Shown piece by piece: positions 49,340 to 59,289 of a DNA stretch of 64,000 bases; within the stretch, counting starts at the first letter, position 1; every line of letters begins with the position of its first letter. The notes under the pieces are model-generated. The model saw nothing but the letters and a program-made list of their open reading frames with translations, ran no database searches and was not told where the DNA came from. A program made the position numbers and the translations under genes. This DNA comes from Actinomycetes bacterium (lineage in GTDB: Bacteria; Actinomycetota; Acidimicrobiia; Acidimicrobiales; Bog-793), in assembly GCA_021798985.1 (NCBI GenBank), contig JAJZBI010000001.1:1-64000 (forward strand), written 5' to 3'.

Positions 49340-49858
49340 TCAGCCGGTCGTCGCGGCGAGCTCTCGCCAGCGGCCCTTGCCCAGCGCGAGCTCGGCGGCG
49401 GGCAGCTTCAAGGTGTCGTCGGACAGGCTGGCGGCGACGGCCCGCTGGTCCCAGTAGTCGTGGCTCACCCCGGCAAAGAGCCGGCGACGCAGCTCGACCA
49501 GCTCGGTCGGGGCCGTGTCGAGGAAGCCGAAGAGCCCGAGGACGGCCTCGAGGTCGGTGGCGACCGGAGCGCGACCAAAGAGCGCGGCCCGGCGCATGGC
49601 GAGCATCACCGCCCCGACCAAGACGTCGTGCTCGCGCTCCCCCTCGCTCAGCACGAGGCGGTCGGCGAAGCGCCGGGCGAGACGGAGGGCGTAGCCCTGG
49701 TCCGGTCCCGGGGCTCCGGCCCCGGCACGCAGCGCGCGCCGTCCGGGGCGATGCTCGGCCGGCCGGTGCTCTGGCGTCCAGGCCCGCGACGTCGGCAGCT
49801 GGTAGCCGGGGCGGACATTGTCCTCGAGGGGAATGGGGACGTACTTGGGCTGCGTCAT
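49340..49858 (-). CDS. Conserved actinobacterial hypothetical protein
   Basis: A 172-residue soluble protein that I do not recognise beyond general actinobacterial likeness. It opens with MTQPKYVPIPLEDNVRPGYQ, contains EGEREHDVLVGAVMLAMRRA and ends with ELALGKGRWRELAATTG. The ATG overlaps the cimA stop by four bases, placing it last in the leuB-ilvE-cimA run and under the same attenuator. A role in amino acid synthesis is possible but only positional. Confidence 0.7.
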   Translation of the reverse strand: MTQPKYVPIPLEDNVRPGYQLPTSRAWTPEHRPAEHRPGRRALRAGAGAPGPDQGYALRLARRFADRLVLSEGEREHDVLVGAVMLAMRRAALFGRAPVATDLEAVLGLFGFLDTAPTELVELRRRLFAGVSHDYWDQRAVAASLSDDTLKLPAAELALGKGRWRELAATTG

Positions 49859-51624
49859 GACCGCTTGGAGATGCTAGTCGCCCCCACGGCGGCGGCCCGG
49901 AGGAGCCCGTAGACGATGCCGTCGACGAGCGCCTCCCAAGAGGACTCGATGACGTTCTCGGACACCCCGATCGTCGACCAGCTCCCATCGGCGTCGGTCA
50001 CGTCGAGCAGCACCCTGGTCACCGCGCCCGTGCCCTTGGCCGTGTCGAGGACGCGCACTCGGTAGTCGGTGAGGCGCATGTGCTCGAGCTCGGGGAAGAA
50101 TGCGCCGATCGCCTGGCGCAGCGCCTGGTCGAGGGCGTGGACCGGGCCGTTGCCCTCGGCGGTCGCCACGACCCGCTCGTCACCGACGCGCACCTTGACC
50201 GTGGCCTCGGTGACGAGCGCGCCCGGGGCTGACCAGGGATGAACCAGCTCGGCGGCCTCCTCGTTGCGATGCCCACGACCGGGCGGGTCCGCTCGCCAGT
50301 CGGTGGTCACGCGGTAGGACTCGATGGTAAAGAAGCGGTCGAGCGGGCCGTCCGAGCCGGCCGCCGCCCGCATCAACAGCTCGAGCGAGCCGTCGGCGAC
50401 CTCGAAGTGGTAGCCCTCGTGCTCGAGGCGCTTCAGCGTCTCGACCACCTCGCCGGCAGCAGTGGAGTCGAGGTCGATGCCGAGCTCGGACGCCTTCAGG
50501 GAGATCGTCGACCGCCCCGACAGCTCGCTCACCACGACCCGGTTGCCGTTGCCGACGAGCTCGGGGCGGATGTGCTCGTAGGCCTCGGGCAGCCGGGCGA
50601 TCGCCGAGGTGTGCAGGCCTGCCTTGTGGGCGAAGGCCGCGGTGCCCACGTAGGGTCGCTGCGGGTCGAGCGCGACGTTGACGACCTCGGCGACGTGGCG
50701 GGCGACCGGCGTGACGAGCTCGAGGCGCTCGCGCGGGATCGTCTCGACGCCCATCTTCAGGCTCAAGTTGGCGATGGTCGCCGACAAGTCGGCGTTGCCG
50801 GCGCGCTCGCCGTAGCCATTGACGCAGCCCTGGACCTGGGTTGCCCCGCGGCGCACCGCGATCAGGCTATTGGCGACGGCGCAGCCCGAGTCGTTGTGGA
50901 AGTGCACGCCGAGCCCGGCGCCGACACGGGCGCGCACCGCGCTCACCACCGCCTCGACCTCATCAGGCAGGGTGCCGCCGTTGGTGTCGCACAAGACGAG
51001 GGCCTCGGCCCCGGCGGCCTCGGCCGCTGCGAGCACCGCGAGGGAGAAATCCGGGTCCGCCCGGTAGCCGTCGAAGAAGTGCTCGGCGTCGAGCATCACC
51101 CGGCGACCCTCGGCGCGCAAGAACGCCACCGAGTCGGCGACCATCGCCACGGCCTCCTCGGGCGTCGTGCGCAGGGCCATCCGGACCTGCAGCGCGGAGG
51201 CCTTGGCCACCAGGCAGACGACGTCGGTCTGGGCGGCGAGCAGCGCACCAAGCCCGGCATCCGCGCCGGCGGTGATGCCCGCCCGGCGCGTCGATCCGAA
51301 GGCGACGAGGGTGGAGTGGGCGAGCTTCAGCTCATCGCGGGCCCGCTGGAAGAACTCGTCGTCCTTCGGGTTGGCGCCTGGCCACCCGCCTTCGATGTAG
51401 GCGACGCCGAGATGGTCCAGCTGCTCGGCGACCTTCAGCTTGTCGTCGACGGTGAGCGACATCCCCTCTTGCTGGGAGCCGTCGCGCAGCGTCGTGTCGT
51501 AGACCTCGACCGCACGGGGCAGCTCGGACGGCACCGTCGCGTCGTGGTGGCCGCCCGCAGCGCCGTGGTGGTGGCCAGGCGATGCCACGGGGGCGTCGTG
51601 GTGCTCGTGGGGCTCATGCGACAT
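49855..51624 (-). CDS. cimA: (R)-citramalate synthase
   Basis: A 589-residue enzyme condensing acetyl-CoA with pyruvate to citramalate, opening a threonine-independent route to 2-oxobutyrate and isoleucine. The HMGL-like barrel starts VEVYDTTLRDGSQQEGMSLT, with metal ligands in VHFHNDSGCAVANS and the GCVNGYGERAGNADL loop; the C-terminal regulatory domain (about 410-545) resembles LeuA's feedback domain. Homology to the CimA/AksA type is clearer than to LeuA. Residues 1-31 form an odd histidine-rich leader (HEPHEHHDAP, PGHHHGAAGGHHD). The ATG overlaps the ilvE stop by 11 bases. Downstream LeuCD and LeuB handle the citramalate products. Confidence 0.88.
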   Translation of the reverse strand: MSHEPHEHHDAPVASPGHHHGAAGGHHDATVPSELPRAVEVYDTTLRDGSQQEGMSLTVDDKLKVAEQLDHLGVAYIEGGWPGANPKDDEFFQRARDELKLAHSTLVAFGSTRRAGITAGADAGLGALLAAQTDVVCLVAKASALQVRMALRTTPEEAVAMVADSVAFLRAEGRRVMLDAEHFFDGYRADPDFSLAVLAAAEAAGAEALVLCDTNGGTLPDEVEAVVSAVRARVGAGLGVHFHNDSGCAVANSLIAVRRGATQVQGCVNGYGERAGNADLSATIANLSLKMGVETIPRERLELVTPVARHVAEVVNVALDPQRPYVGTAAFAHKAGLHTSAIARLPEAYEHIRPELVGNGNRVVVSELSGRSTISLKASELGIDLDSTAAGEVVETLKRLEHEGYHFEVADGSLELLMRAAAGSDGPLDRFFTIESYRVTTDWRADPPGRGHRNEEAAELVHPWSAPGALVTEATVKVRVGDERVVATAEGNGPVHALDQALRQAIGAFFPELEHMRLTDYRVRVLDTAKGTGAVTRVLLDVTDADGSWSTIGVSENVIESSWEALVDGIVYGLLRAAAVGATSISKRS

Positions 51625-52540
51625 AGTCCAGCCAGTCCTTGTAGCGCTCCTGCTCGCCCCGCACTGCCGCCAGGTACACCTCCTGGATCGCCTTGGTCAC
51701 CGGCCCGCGCTCGCCGGTACCGACCAGGTGGTCGTCGACCGAGGCGATCGGCACGACCTCGGCGGCCGTGCCGGTGAGGAAGGCCTCGTCGGCGACGTAG
51801 AGGTCCGCCCGACGCAACAGGCCCGGCTGGACCTCGAAGCCGAGGTCTCGAGCGATCCTCGTCACCGCATCGGCGGTGATGCCCTCGAGGGCGCCGACCG
51901 TCGAGGGGTTCGGCGTCGAGATCTTGCCGTCGCGCACGAGAAAGAGGTTCTCGCCCGTGCCCTCGGCGAGATAGCCGTCGGTCGTGCACATCAGCGCCTC
52001 GTCGTAGCCGGCACGCACGGCCTCCACCTTGGCGAGCGAGGAGTTGATATAAAAGCCCGTCGCCTTGGCGGCCGTCGGCAGCGCACGAGGGTCGTGGCGC
52101 GCCCACGAGCTGACCTTCAGGCGAATGCCCGAGCCGCTCGCGTGGTCGCCGAGGTAGGCACCCCAGGGCCACACCGCGACGGCGACGCGGGTCTCGCACG
52201 GCAGCGGGTTGAGCCCCATCTCGCCGTAGCCGAGGTAGGCGAGGGGACGGATGTAGCAGGCATCGAGCCCGCTCGCGCGCACCGTCTGCTTCACGGCGTC
52301 GGTCAGCTCGTCGAGCGAGTAGGGCATCTTCATGTCCAACAGGCGCGCCGAGCGGATGAAGCGCTCGAGGTGCTCGCGCAGGCGGAAGACCGCCGGGCCT
52401 GCGTCGGTGCGGTAGGCACGGATGCCCTCGAAGACGCCCGAGCCGTAGTGCAACGAGTGCGTGAGGACGTGCACGGTCGCTCGCTCCCAGTCGACGAGCT
52501 CGCCGTCCATCCAGATCTTGGCCGTCGGAGTGATCGGCAT
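51614..52540 (-). CDS. ilvE: Branched-chain amino acid aminotransferase
   Basis: A 308-residue class IV PLP aminotransferase that transfers amino groups to the 2-oxo acids of Ile, Leu and Val. MDGELVDWERATVHVLTHSL, then YGSGVFEGIRAY, and the Schiff-base lysine region KATGFYINSSLAKVEAVRAG, then EGTGENLFLV are typical. The ATG at 52540 begins after GGGAGG, which overlaps the leuB stop. It lies between leuB and cimA, so it takes products of both the leucine and citramalate routes. Confidence 0.93.
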   Translation of the reverse strand: MPITPTAKIWMDGELVDWERATVHVLTHSLHYGSGVFEGIRAYRTDAGPAVFRLREHLERFIRSARLLDMKMPYSLDELTDAVKQTVRASGLDACYIRPLAYLGYGEMGLNPLPCETRVAVAVWPWGAYLGDHASGSGIRLKVSSWARHDPRALPTAAKATGFYINSSLAKVEAVRAGYDEALMCTTDGYLAEGTGENLFLVRDGKISTPNPSTVGALEGITADAVTRIARDLGFEVQPGLLRRADLYVADEAFLTGTAAEVVPIASVDDHLVGTGERGPVTKAIQEVYLAAVRGEQERYKDWLDYVA

Positions 52541-52541
52541 C

Positions 52542-53567
52542 TCACACCCTCCCTGCGACGGCGTCGCCGATCGCCGTCGTCGTCCACTCGCCGCCGGCAG
52601 CGGCGATCTCATCTTGCAGCGCCAGCACCGCCTGCTCCACCCGCTGCGCGGCGTCGTGCTCCCCGAGGTGCTCGAGCATCATCCCCGCCGAGCGGATCGC
52701 CGCCAGCGGGTTGGCCTTCCCGGTGCCGACGATGTCGTGCGCCGCGCCGTGCACCGGCTCGAACATCGACGGGCCCGTGCGCGCCGGGTTCAAGTTGGCG
52801 GAGGCGGCGAGGCCGATCCCGCCCGTTACGGCGCCGGCGAGATCGGTGAGGATGTCGCCGAAGAGGTTGTCGGTGACGATCACGTCGTAGCGCTCGGCCG
52901 CCGTGGCGAGGTAGATCGTGGCGGCGTCCACGTGGTGGTAGCCGGTGCTCACCTCGGGGTGCTCGGTGGCGACGTCGTTGAAGGTCCGCTGCCACAGATC
53001 ACCGGAGAAGGTGAGGACGTTGGTCTTGTGCACCAAAGTCGCCGAGCGCCGCGGGCGGCGCTCGGCGAGCTCGAAGGCAAAGCGCACGCAGCGCTCGACC
53101 CCAAAGCGGGTGTTGACCGAACCCTGGGTGGCGACCTCGTTCGGCGTGCCTCGGCGCAACAGGCCGCCCTCGCCGACGTAGGGGCCCTCGGTGTTCTCGC
53201 GCACCACCGCAAAGTCGGCGCTCGGCGCGATCGCGCCCGGGACGCCGTTGAAGGGTCGCAGGTTGATGTACAGGTCGAGGCTGAAGCGCAGGCGCAACAG
53301 CAGCCCGCGCTCGAGCACGCCGGGGGGGACCTCACTCGAGCCGATCGCCGGGCCGATGGCACCGAGCAAGATCGCGTCGGTCGCCTGGAGCTCGTCGAGC
53401 ACGCTGTCGGGCAGGACCTCGCCGGTCCGCACGTAGCGGGCAGCCCCGAGGTCGTAGTCGACCGTCGAGAGCCGCACCCCGGTCGCCTCCACGACCTTCA
53501 GCGCCTCGGCGGTGACCTCGGGACCGATCCCGTCCCCGCCGATCACCGCCACCTTGTAAGCCGCCAC
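52542..53567 (-). CDS. leuB: 3-isopropylmalate dehydrogenase
   Basis: A 341-residue NAD-dependent decarboxylating dehydrogenase that converts 3-isopropylmalate to 2-oxoisocaproate; with citramalate feeding it also acts on 3-methylmalate. [20 protein letters not shown], then [43 protein letters not shown] and [10 protein letters not shown] are family blocks. GTG 53567 follows GAGGAGGAAGC. An attenuator with a Val/Ile leader peptide lies directly upstream. Confidence 0.94.
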
Positions 53568-53661
53568 CGCTTGCTTCCTCCTCAGCGCCCTGGACCGCCT
53601 CCAGCGGTCCGCATCCGATCCTGTGTGCCGCCCCACCCGGCGCCCAGTCGCCTCCGGGTAC

Positions 53662-53687
53662 AAAAAAAGCCGCCCCAGAGGGACGGC
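53662..53687 (-). terminator. Attenuator terminator of the leuB-ilvE-cimA operon
   Basis: On the minus strand GCCGTCCC and GGGGCGGC pair (one G:U) around a three-base loop, followed by TTTTTTT. It ends 95 bases before leuB, after the leader peptide and hairpin. Confidence 0.88.
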
Positions 53688-53688
53688 A

Positions 53689-53719
53689 AGCGACGCGACC
53701 CGAGACGGGCTGCGTCGCT
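53689..53719 (-). promoter_or_regulatory. Hairpin 1 of the leuB leader
   Basis: AGCGACGC and GCGTCGCT form an eight-base stem that continues with CCCG/CGGG inside. It starts within the leader peptide's stop codon and ends just before the terminator, the position of a pause or antitermination-competing hairpin in ribosome-mediated attenuators. Confidence 0.75.
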
Positions 53720-53751
53720 CAGGGAATTACGAAGACCTGCGGGGGCGTCAT
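53719..53751 (-). CDS. Leader peptide of the leuB operon ([10 protein letters not shown])
   Basis: A ten-codon frame reading [10 protein letters not shown] and TGA. The Val, Val and Ile codons near its end would stall the ribosome when these amino acids are scarce, which would prevent hairpin 1 and terminator pairing order and allow leuB expression. The content fits an operon that makes isoleucine via CimA. GGGAG lies about 12 bases upstream, rather far; translation may instead be nearly leaderless (see the promoter). Confidence 0.7.
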
Positions 53752-53759
53752 ACCTGGTC

Positions 53760-53788
53760 AGTCTCCCAAGTCCCTGCTGCGCCGTCAA
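53760..53788 (-). promoter_or_regulatory. Predicted promoter of the leuB leader
   Basis: TTGACG (53788-53783) and GAGACT (53765-53760) are 17 bases apart. A start site about seven bases after the -10 falls at or within a few bases of the leader-peptide ATG. The arrangement resembles the leuA leader promoter. Confidence 0.5.
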
Positions 53789-53833
53789 CTCGGGCGCGGG
53801 CCGGCGCCGCGCCGGGCGCGCGAACATGGACGG

Positions 53834-54292
53834 GTGACTCGGTTGCCGCCCGGTCGCCGCCAGCTTCGTGCCTCAGATGCCGAGCGGGACGCGGTCGTCC
53901 ACCAGCTGCGCGACGCCAGCGCGGCCGGTCGGCTCGAGCTGTCCGAGACCACCGAGCGGATCGAACGGGCACTTGAGTCCAAGACGCTCGGCGAGCTCGA
54001 CGACCTCGTCGCCGACCTGCCGCCCGCATCCGACTCGCCTGCTCCACCGAGCGCGCCCATCTCGGCGTGGCGCTCGCCCCGCCTGTGGTCGCGGGCCATC
54101 CAGCTCGTGATCTTGAACGCCTTCTGCCTGGCGATCTGGGCCCCGAAGGCCGGGCACGGCTTCTGGCCTGCCTGGGTGCTGCTCGCGAGCGCGCTGTGGT
54201 TCGCCCGCAGCGTGACGCGCCAGCTCGAGCGCGAGCGCCGTCGTCAGCGCCGGGCGCTGCGCCGGACGCTGCCGCCCCGCCTCGACCGCTAG
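53834..54292 (+). CDS. DUF1707 membrane protein
   Basis: A 152-residue protein. The N-terminal DUF1707 domain contains RASDAERDAVVHQLRDASAA and GRLELSETTERIERALESKT, an antitoxin-like helical hairpin common in actinobacteria. Two hydrophobic segments follow (AIQLVILNAFCLAIWAP; FWPAWVLLASALWFARS). The C-terminus is rich in arginine. GTG 53834 lies just over 80 bases from the leuB leader in divergent orientation. Function unknown, possibly envelope signalling. Confidence 0.82.
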   Translation: MTRLPPGRRQLRASDAERDAVVHQLRDASAAGRLELSETTERIERALESKTLGELDDLVADLPPASDSPAPPSAPISAWRSPRLWSRAIQLVILNAFCLAIWAPKAGHGFWPAWVLLASALWFARSVTRQLERERRRQRRALRRTLPPRLDR

Positions 54293-54354: not shown

Positions 54355-54822
54355 ATGAGCGAGACCCACCTCAGCCCCGAGGCGCACGGCCGCCTCGTCG
54401 CCGAGCTCGAGGACCTGACGACCCGGGGACGGATCGAGATCGCCAAGCAGATCGAGGCGGCACGCGCCCTCGGTGACCTCTCCGAGAACGGCGACTACCA
54501 CGCCGCCAAGGACGCGCAGGGAAAGATGGAGGCACGTATCCGCCAGATCCAGGCGATGCTCGAATCGGCGGTGATCGTCGAGCAGGCGGGCTCGACCGAC
54601 GGGACCGTCAAGGCGGGCGCGATCGTCGCGATCCGCTACGAGGGTGACGAAGACACCGAGCGCTACCTCGTCGGCTCGATCGAAGAGCGACGCGACGACG
54701 TCTCGGTGATCTCGCCCGGCTCGCCGCTCGGCCAGGCGCTGCTCGGCCACCGAGCCGGCGAGCTGGTGGAGTACGAGGCGCCGAACGGTCGGTTGCGCGT
54801 CGAGATCGCAACGGTCGAATAG
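54355..54822 (+). CDS. greA: Transcription elongation factor GreA
   Basis: A 155-residue factor that inserts a coiled coil into the RNA polymerase secondary channel and triggers cleavage of backtracked RNA. The tip acidic motif is [20 protein letters not shown], with the catalytic D and E in place. The C-terminal FKBP-like domain ends with [20 protein letters not shown]. It sits 23 bases before leuC, possibly on the same transcript. Confidence 0.95.
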
Positions 54823-57424: not shown

Positions 57425-59140
<1,716 letters not shown>

Positions 59141-59153
59141 TCAGTCAGGCAAC

Positions 59154-59185
59154 AAAAAACCTCCTGGCCGAGGCGGCACAGGAGG
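59154..59185 (-). terminator. Attenuator terminator upstream of leuA
   Basis: CCTCCTG and CAGGAGG (with inner GCC/GGC) pair around a loop, followed by TTTTTT on the minus strand. It lies 44 bases before leuA. Confidence 0.88.
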
Positions 59186-59188
59186 TAG

Positions 59189-59212
59189 CGGCGAGCGCGG
59201 TGGCGCTCGCCG
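59189..59212 (-). promoter_or_regulatory. Hairpin 1 of the leuA leader
   Basis: CGGCGAGCG and CGCTCGCCG form a perfect nine-base stem around a six-base loop. It begins directly after the leader-peptide stop codon and ends four bases before the terminator stem. Confidence 0.8.
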
Positions 59213-59251
59213 TCAGGTAAGGAGGAGCTGCTCGAAGGTGGGCTGGAACAT
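59213..59251 (-). CDS. Leucine leader peptide of leuA (MFQPTFEQLLLT)
   Basis: A twelve-codon frame ending CTC CTC CTT ACC TGA. Three consecutive leucine codons sit where a stalled ribosome would cover the start of hairpin 1. An in-frame GTG precedes the ATG directly. No strong ribosome-binding site is upstream, and the predicted start site leaves little or no 5' leader. The product explains leucine-dependent control of leuA. Confidence 0.8.
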   Translation of the reverse strand: MFQPTFEQLLLT

Positions 59252-59259
59252 CACCTAGC

Positions 59260-59289
59260 AGTGTGCGCGCGCCCACCGGCCGCCGTCAA
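59260..59289 (-). promoter_or_regulatory. Predicted promoter of the leuA leader
   Basis: TTGACG (59289-59284) and CACACT (59265-59260) are separated by 18 bases. Seven bases after the -10 lie at the GTG/ATG of the leader peptide, suggesting a leaderless leader peptide. Confidence 0.5.

Follow-up and report, generated by a model that had tools for sequence, protein, structure and literature searches.

A predicted Val/Ile-coded attenuator upstream of leuB-ilvE-cimA in the Acidimicrobiales, with codon-matched sister leaders at leuA and ilvB

Branched-chain amino acid (BCAA) biosynthesis is already known to be controlled by leader-peptide attenuation in proteobacteria, as it is at ilvB in actinobacteria. 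In Mycobacterium tuberculosis, the ilvB1 leader carries LVVI codons, and both reporter assays and deletion of the terminator support attenuation; in the model proposed there, the antiterminator is masked when a ribosome occupies the stop codon (PMC13236596). The actinobacterial survey of Seliverstov et al. (2005) described candidate ilvB leader peptides with terminators as well as a LEU element at leuA, and parts of the classical attenuator were missing for some BCAA operons (PMC1262725). The control codons of the E. coli leu leader are rare ones (PMC1183508), as they are in the leuB leader presented here. Our literature search, from which subscription papers were mostly out of reach, returned no report of an attenuator at leuB-ilvE-cimA or cimA, and none of attenuation in the Acidimicrobiia.

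On the minus strand of the window (the entire 64,000-nt stretch of DNA that was analysed), a promoter, a leader ORF, a first hairpin (hairpin 1) and an intrinsic terminator with seven U residues succeed one another in this order, followed by leuB-ilvE-cimA. The initial annotation had described a TTGACG promoter, a ten-residue frame, a hairpin at its stop codon and a seven-U terminator ahead of leuB, and all of these were confirmed at the coordinates below; the names that it gave to the three genes likewise hold by curated NCBIfam cut-offs.

53788-53783, minus strand: -35 hexamer TTGACG, read from the sequence; it recurs in related leaders
53765-53760, minus strand: putative -10 element GAGACT, with a 17-nt spacer from the -35 hexamer and a weak match to the consensus
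53719..53751, minus strand: leader ORF of ten residues, from ATG at 53751 to TGA at 53721-53719; the frame is kept in relatives
53725..53736, minus strand: control codons GTC TTC GTA ATT (Val-Phe-Val-Ile), from the codon reading of the leader frame
53688..53720, minus strand: hairpin 1, starting on the second base of the leader stop codon; seen in the fold and in 130/130 related leaders, with compensatory changes
53662..53687, minus strand: intrinsic terminator GCCGTCCCtctGGGGCGGC-T7, with the stem-loop at 53687-53669 and T7 ending at 53662; from the fold and a terminator scan
52542..53567, minus strand: leuB, the first operon gene (NCBIfam NF002898; 486 bits, cut-off 393)
51614..52543, minus strand: ilvE (NCBIfam TIGR01122; 414 bits, cut-off 246)
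49855..51624, minus strand: cimA, citramalate synthase, overlapping the end of ilvE (NCBIfam TIGR00977; 632 bits, cut-off 450)

The terminator (53687-53662) thus lies between the leader ORF and the first structural gene, and is conserved in relatives; it is the sole terminator-like site in 53400-53950, where 0.1 would be expected. About 94 nt separate the end of its T7 tract (53662) from the GTG start codon of leuB (53567), which is preceded by AGGAGG. The leader as a whole (53760-53655; 106 nt) folds at -47.9 kcal/mol (z = -4.4), with none of 200 shuffles as good. The leader promoter was not called by a consensus promoter scan, GAGACT matching the -10 consensus at just three of six positions; TTGACG is matched at five or six of its six positions in 82/133 related leaders, where its spacing to the leader start codon is fixed (29-34 nt from the -35 hexamer in most relatives). 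As the end of GAGACT lies 8 nt from the leader ATG, the leader ORF is probably leaderless; a Shine-Dalgarno-like sequence is absent before it in 106 of the 133 related leaders. At the curated gathering score, the leader matches no Rfam family, be it T-box, riboswitch or leader; the Rfam matches in the window comprise four tRNAs and one fluoride riboswitch (RF01734; 41345-41406, plus strand; 53 bits). Divergent from the attenuator, and one small gene away from it, is a GreA-like transcription elongation factor gene (54355-54822, plus strand), named from its sequence only.

The occurrence of this leader in relatives was assessed by retrieving 30 loci with the LeuB protein of the window and reading the regions upstream of leuB: most present a TTGAC promoter, an ORF of 9-24 residues ending in Val/Ile, a stop-codon hairpin and a terminator. 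A covariance model, R1, built from 22 of these leaders, matches in 180/298 genomes and 125/172 genera of the order (Acidimicrobiales), and in 28 of 396 genomes of a phylum-wide sample, where 22 of the matches belong to the same order or class and the other six are weak. Among named genomes, 23 R1 matches fall in loci close to the window LeuB, their titles being mostly Acidimicrobiaceae, Acidimicrobiia, Ilumatobacteraceae, Microthrixaceae or Actinomycetes; there were zero matches in the Nocardioides, Nocardia, Nonomuraea, Corynebacterium and Microbacterium loci of the same scan. Inspection of 144 loci showed that the leader is followed by a gene for LeuB (127) or CimA (8), or by ilvB (7), and two matches with none of these downstream are probably false. 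The leader is missing before leuB in six family members, and at two further loci it has lost its pattern, reading VFR. The terminator core, CCGTCC..GGGCGG, is conserved in relatives; a genome pattern search using this core was uninformative (31 matches, as against 39 in the control). The comparison with relatives that the initial annotation had suggested therefore comes out in its favour: throughout the order, the leader has kept its peptide frame, its Val/Ile codons, its two hairpins and its target operon, and compensatory changes are found in hairpin 1.

Across 133 distinct leaders, the five codons before the stop are about 67% Val or Ile when read in frame, and 1.1% and 0.6% Val or Ile in the two shifted frames; the choice of stop and start codons in the survey favoured V/I-rich readings, such that the in-frame value is somewhat inflated, although its contrast with the shifted frames is not. 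In the rest of the peptide the Val/Ile share is about 5%, and Leu is rare. The control codons are mostly at positions -5 to -2 relative to the stop, and the synonymous codons vary across leaders, with ATC, ATT, GTA, GTC, GTG and ATA all in use. GTA nevertheless makes up 102/166 Val codons (61%) in leuB leaders versus 2/287 (0.7%) in eight window genes, and ATT makes up 107/251 Ile codons (43%) versus 3/129 (2.3%); the GTA and ATT of the window leader are, accordingly, rare codons in window genes. As judged from the gene assignments, this short ORF would encode amino acids made by the operon that it precedes, which comprises LeuB, a BCAA transaminase and citramalate synthase.

All 130 distinct leuB/cimA leaders, versus 20% of shuffles, have a hairpin with 7 bp or more whose start lies 0-4 nt from the stop codon's first base, and the mean fold z across these leaders is -6.0 (n = 130). 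When leaders of equal stem offset and length were placed in ungapped groups, hairpin 1 pairing held in 97-100% of cells, and in 5-15% when slid by one, values that lean toward structure since the stem positions were taken from each sequence's own fold; the independent part of the evidence is the compensatory changes on both sides, which occur at four to eight of the eight hairpin 1 pairs. RNAalifold, run on a MAFFT alignment, kept only three hairpin 1 pairs, which we think results from the stem starts shifting by 0-4 nt, and the ungapped grouping was used instead. Hairpin 1 and the terminator are separated by 0-6 nt in leuB leaders, 0-3 nt in ilvB leaders and 0-5 nt in leuA leaders. Within the leuB terminator, the fifth pair from the loop is a U-G wobble in 96/130 stems, although C-G would be stronger.

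The leuB leader has sisters in the same genome, one of which, at leuA, lies within the window and had been passed over in the initial annotation; a further one precedes ilvB, a gene that is 0.9 kb beyond the window end.

59154..59289, minus strand: leuA sister attenuator (TTGACG, leader, hairpin 1 and terminator), matched by model R2, with Leu codons
59251-59213, minus strand: leuA leader MFQPTFEQLLLT*, read from the sequence
59212-59189, minus strand: leuA hairpin 1, part of the sister attenuator
59186-59154, minus strand: leuA terminator with T6, part of the sister attenuator
57425..59110, minus strand: leuA, under the sister attenuator (NCBIfam NF002991; 876 bits, cut-off 455)
66683-66757 (contig positions, just beyond the window), minus strand: ilvB attenuator, with leader MATASIVVLLT*

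In the order, a leuA leader is matched by R2 in 196/248 genomes, and Leu occupies codons -4, -3 and -2 in 30/30 of those examined. Matches to the ilvB model, R3, occur in 208/248 genomes, a few being leuB leaders; in the ilvB leaders (n = 30), Val is at -4 in 30/30, preceded mostly by Leu and followed by Val, Leu or Ile, and many of the ilvB leaders recovered here read L-V-V-I. At the eight loci where a leuB-type leader directly precedes cimA, Ile is found at -4, -3 and -2 in 8/8, with no Val, the leaders reading Ile-Ile-Ile(-Ile). Leu at leuA, Ile at cimA, Val plus Ile at leuB-ilvE-cimA and all three at ilvB is the distribution predicted if each leader senses the product of its operon. The leuB element is, as far as the sequences indicate, one of three codon-matched BCAA attenuators (leuA, ilvB and leuB/cimA) and not an isolated one. 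These matched leaders on the sister operons (LLL at leuA, L/V/I at ilvB, IIII at cimA alone) give good support to the initial proposal that Val and Ile, rather than Leu, would be sensed. Overall, we regard it as highly probable that the element is a ribosome-mediated transcription attenuator of leuB-ilvE-cimA, predicted to respond to charged tRNA-Val and tRNA-Ile.

Several further features of the sister leaders are recorded here. The stem of the leuA terminator, CCTCCTG-Y-GCC..GGCCAGGAGG, keeps a bulged nucleotide that is nearly always a pyrimidine (e.g. 59186-59160), and GGAGGU, which is Shine-Dalgarno-like, occurs in both leuA and ilvB leaders within the 3' arm of the terminator. Related ilvB leaders are found in other classes of the phylum, and in the version of the ilvB leader outside the class, the stop codon is in or at the stem base, with a gap of 0-1 nt. 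The idea that the leuB and ilvB hairpins are recent copies within one genome was discarded, post-stop identity being 4.27 within and 4.56 of 9 between genomes.

Sensing of Val and Ile would suit an operon containing cimA. With these leaders, leuB-ilvE-cimA and cimA would be added to the set of operons controlled in this way, in keeping with isoleucine synthesis from citramalate. No protein scored above the TIGR01127 cut-off for threonine deaminase (best 286 bits versus 379); the best candidate locus is a 401-aa ORF resembling threonine/serine dehydratases, and since the function of this ORF is unsettled, we do not claim citramalate as the only isoleucine route.

The leading edge of a ribosome is taken to lie about 13 nt downstream of where its A-site codon begins. 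A ribosome at codon -4 would, therefore, reach just to the first nucleotide of the stop codon, one at codon -2 would cover some five bases at the start of the hairpin 1 5' arm, and one at the stop codon would cover that arm entirely, full masking being expected only there. From these edge positions, stalling would permit hairpin 1 and finished translation would forbid it. With ample Val and Ile, the ribosome would reach the stop codon and mask the 5' arm, the terminator would close and transcription would end; if either were short, the ribosome would stall two to five codons before the stop, with its edge before or just inside the hairpin, and hairpin 1 would fold, giving readthrough.

How a folded hairpin 1 would prevent termination was approached through pairing energies. 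In leuB, leuA and ilvB leaders, duplex energies of the ORF, the 5' arm, and the 3' arm plus linker with each terminator arm were compared with dinucleotide shuffles, a test that measures pairing energy and not folding kinetics. Upstream complementarity to the terminator arms was at shuffle level in leuB leaders (mean z -0.2 to +0.4) and gave no signal in leuA and ilvB leaders (mean z -0.2 to +0.9); folding from the hairpin 1 loop to the terminator 5' arm in 60/130 leaders likewise gave no antiterminator signal. By pairing energy, then, an antiterminator mutually exclusive with the terminator was not found in any of the three leader types, and the element is for this reason better called a variant that would work like a ribosome-mediated attenuator than a textbook member.

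Given that no antiterminator pairing was found and that hairpin 1 does not overlap the terminator, we tentatively propose that the switching step is steric antitermination: once folded, hairpin 1 would sit directly against the base of the terminator stem and hinder closure of that stem in the RNA exit channel. Our literature search found no direct precedent for such a step, and we put it level in likelihood with a classical antiterminator that is hidden from folding energies, each being rather less likely than not. This classical alternative concerns the switching step only and could, for example, involve weak kinetic pairing of the hairpin 1 3' arm with the terminator 5' arm while the 5' arm of hairpin 1 is occluded by a stalled ribosome. 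All the other classical parts are present in the leaders, a mutually exclusive antiterminator is proposed in mycobacteria and predicted in Corynebacterium, and in several leuB leaders GUGUGCG of the 3' arm could form six pairs with CGUCCAC, leaving one mismatch. However, besides the shuffle-level complementarity described above, pairing of the 3' arm with the terminator 5' arm averages about -5.6 kcal/mol versus -17 for the terminator, and control codons at -5 to -2 would leave the edge of the ribosome short of the 5' arm or level with its start, such that a stall would mask the arm poorly. A broader generalization, which we hold to be somewhat doubtful, is that of an attenuator class that dispenses with alternative base pairing, in which the stop-codon hairpin would be a steric antiterminator removed only once a ribosome reaches the stop codon, operating at leuA, ilvB and leuB/cimA order-wide and at ilvB in other classes. 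The apparent lack of an antiterminator offers a testable case for the possibility that hairpin proximity by itself suffices for attenuation.

Among relatives, many terminators have a short U tract (four to five U), and hairpin clusters that serve as terminators are on record (PMC8355165); hairpins 1 and 2 might thus form a composite double-hairpin terminator, weakened when hairpin 1 is opened in part by a ribosome that has stalled at the control codons. This appears improbable, as a stall at the first control codon would miss hairpin 1, whereas a stop-codon ribosome would unfold it fully, and the resulting polarity would be opposite to that needed by a biosynthetic operon. That GTA and ATT are strikingly favoured, and that GCGCACG..CGUGCGC recurs in hairpin 1 of leuB and ilvB leaders, might indicate an RNA or protein-binding motif (CGTAATTCCCTGA plus the hairpin) with an incidental ORF, but the codons vary synonymously and between Val and Ile with the frame kept, and the coded amino acid follows the operon (Leu, Ile or Val/Ile), leaving this reading very little credence. 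A constitutive terminator after an unrelated small ORF, with regulation absent, is just as hard to reconcile with the match between codons and operon in four operon types and with conservation over 125 genera.

If the ribosome-mediated reading is correct, an order of mostly uncultured actinobacteria apparently controls BCAA synthesis via operon-matched attenuators (Leu; Leu/Val/Ile; Val/Ile; Ile), and this codon-matched set constitutes a natural experiment tying leader codons to pathway product.

In comparison with known systems, the E. coli trp, his, leu, ilvGMEDA and ilvBN attenuators likewise have a short ORF with its control codons toward the 3' end, followed by a terminator and a biosynthetic operon; they differ in having alternative II:III antiterminators, and Val/Ile control of leuB-ilvE-cimA is not among the E. 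coli operon and codon combinations. The Corynebacterium ilvB-II motif, or ilvBNC uORF, is similar in that a conserved BCAA-rich uORF precedes a terminator stem (PMC10272879). There, however, the uORF covers most of hairpin P1, whereas in our leaders the stop codon marks the start of hairpin 1. The antiterminator predicted for Corynebacterium joins the P1 loop to the terminator (PMC10272879), a pairing of which there is no sign in our leaders. The set of Seliverstov et al. (2005) shares BCAA-coded leader peptides and terminators with ours, although it reports no leuB/cimA attenuator, and the Acidimicrobiia are absent among its genomes (PMC1262725). For leuA, a pseudoknot overlapping the Shine-Dalgarno site was described (PMC1262725), the base stem of this LEU element pairing Leu codons to that site, whereas an LLL leader and an intrinsic terminator are present here. 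The locus does not belong to the mycobacterial ilvB1 type, which precedes ilvB and reads LVVI; here VFVI precedes leuB, and the ilvB leader is separate. The target in M. tuberculosis is ilvBNC rather than leuB-ilvE-cimA, and a mutually exclusive antiterminator is proposed there that was not found here. In other respects M. tuberculosis ilvB1NC is alike: it comes from the same phylum, it has a short uORF with BCAA control codons that include GUA, and an intrinsic terminator stands before the gene (PMC13236596). Moreover, the proposed polarity is the same, the structure so controlled in M. tuberculosis ilvB1 being the antiterminator (PMC13236596).
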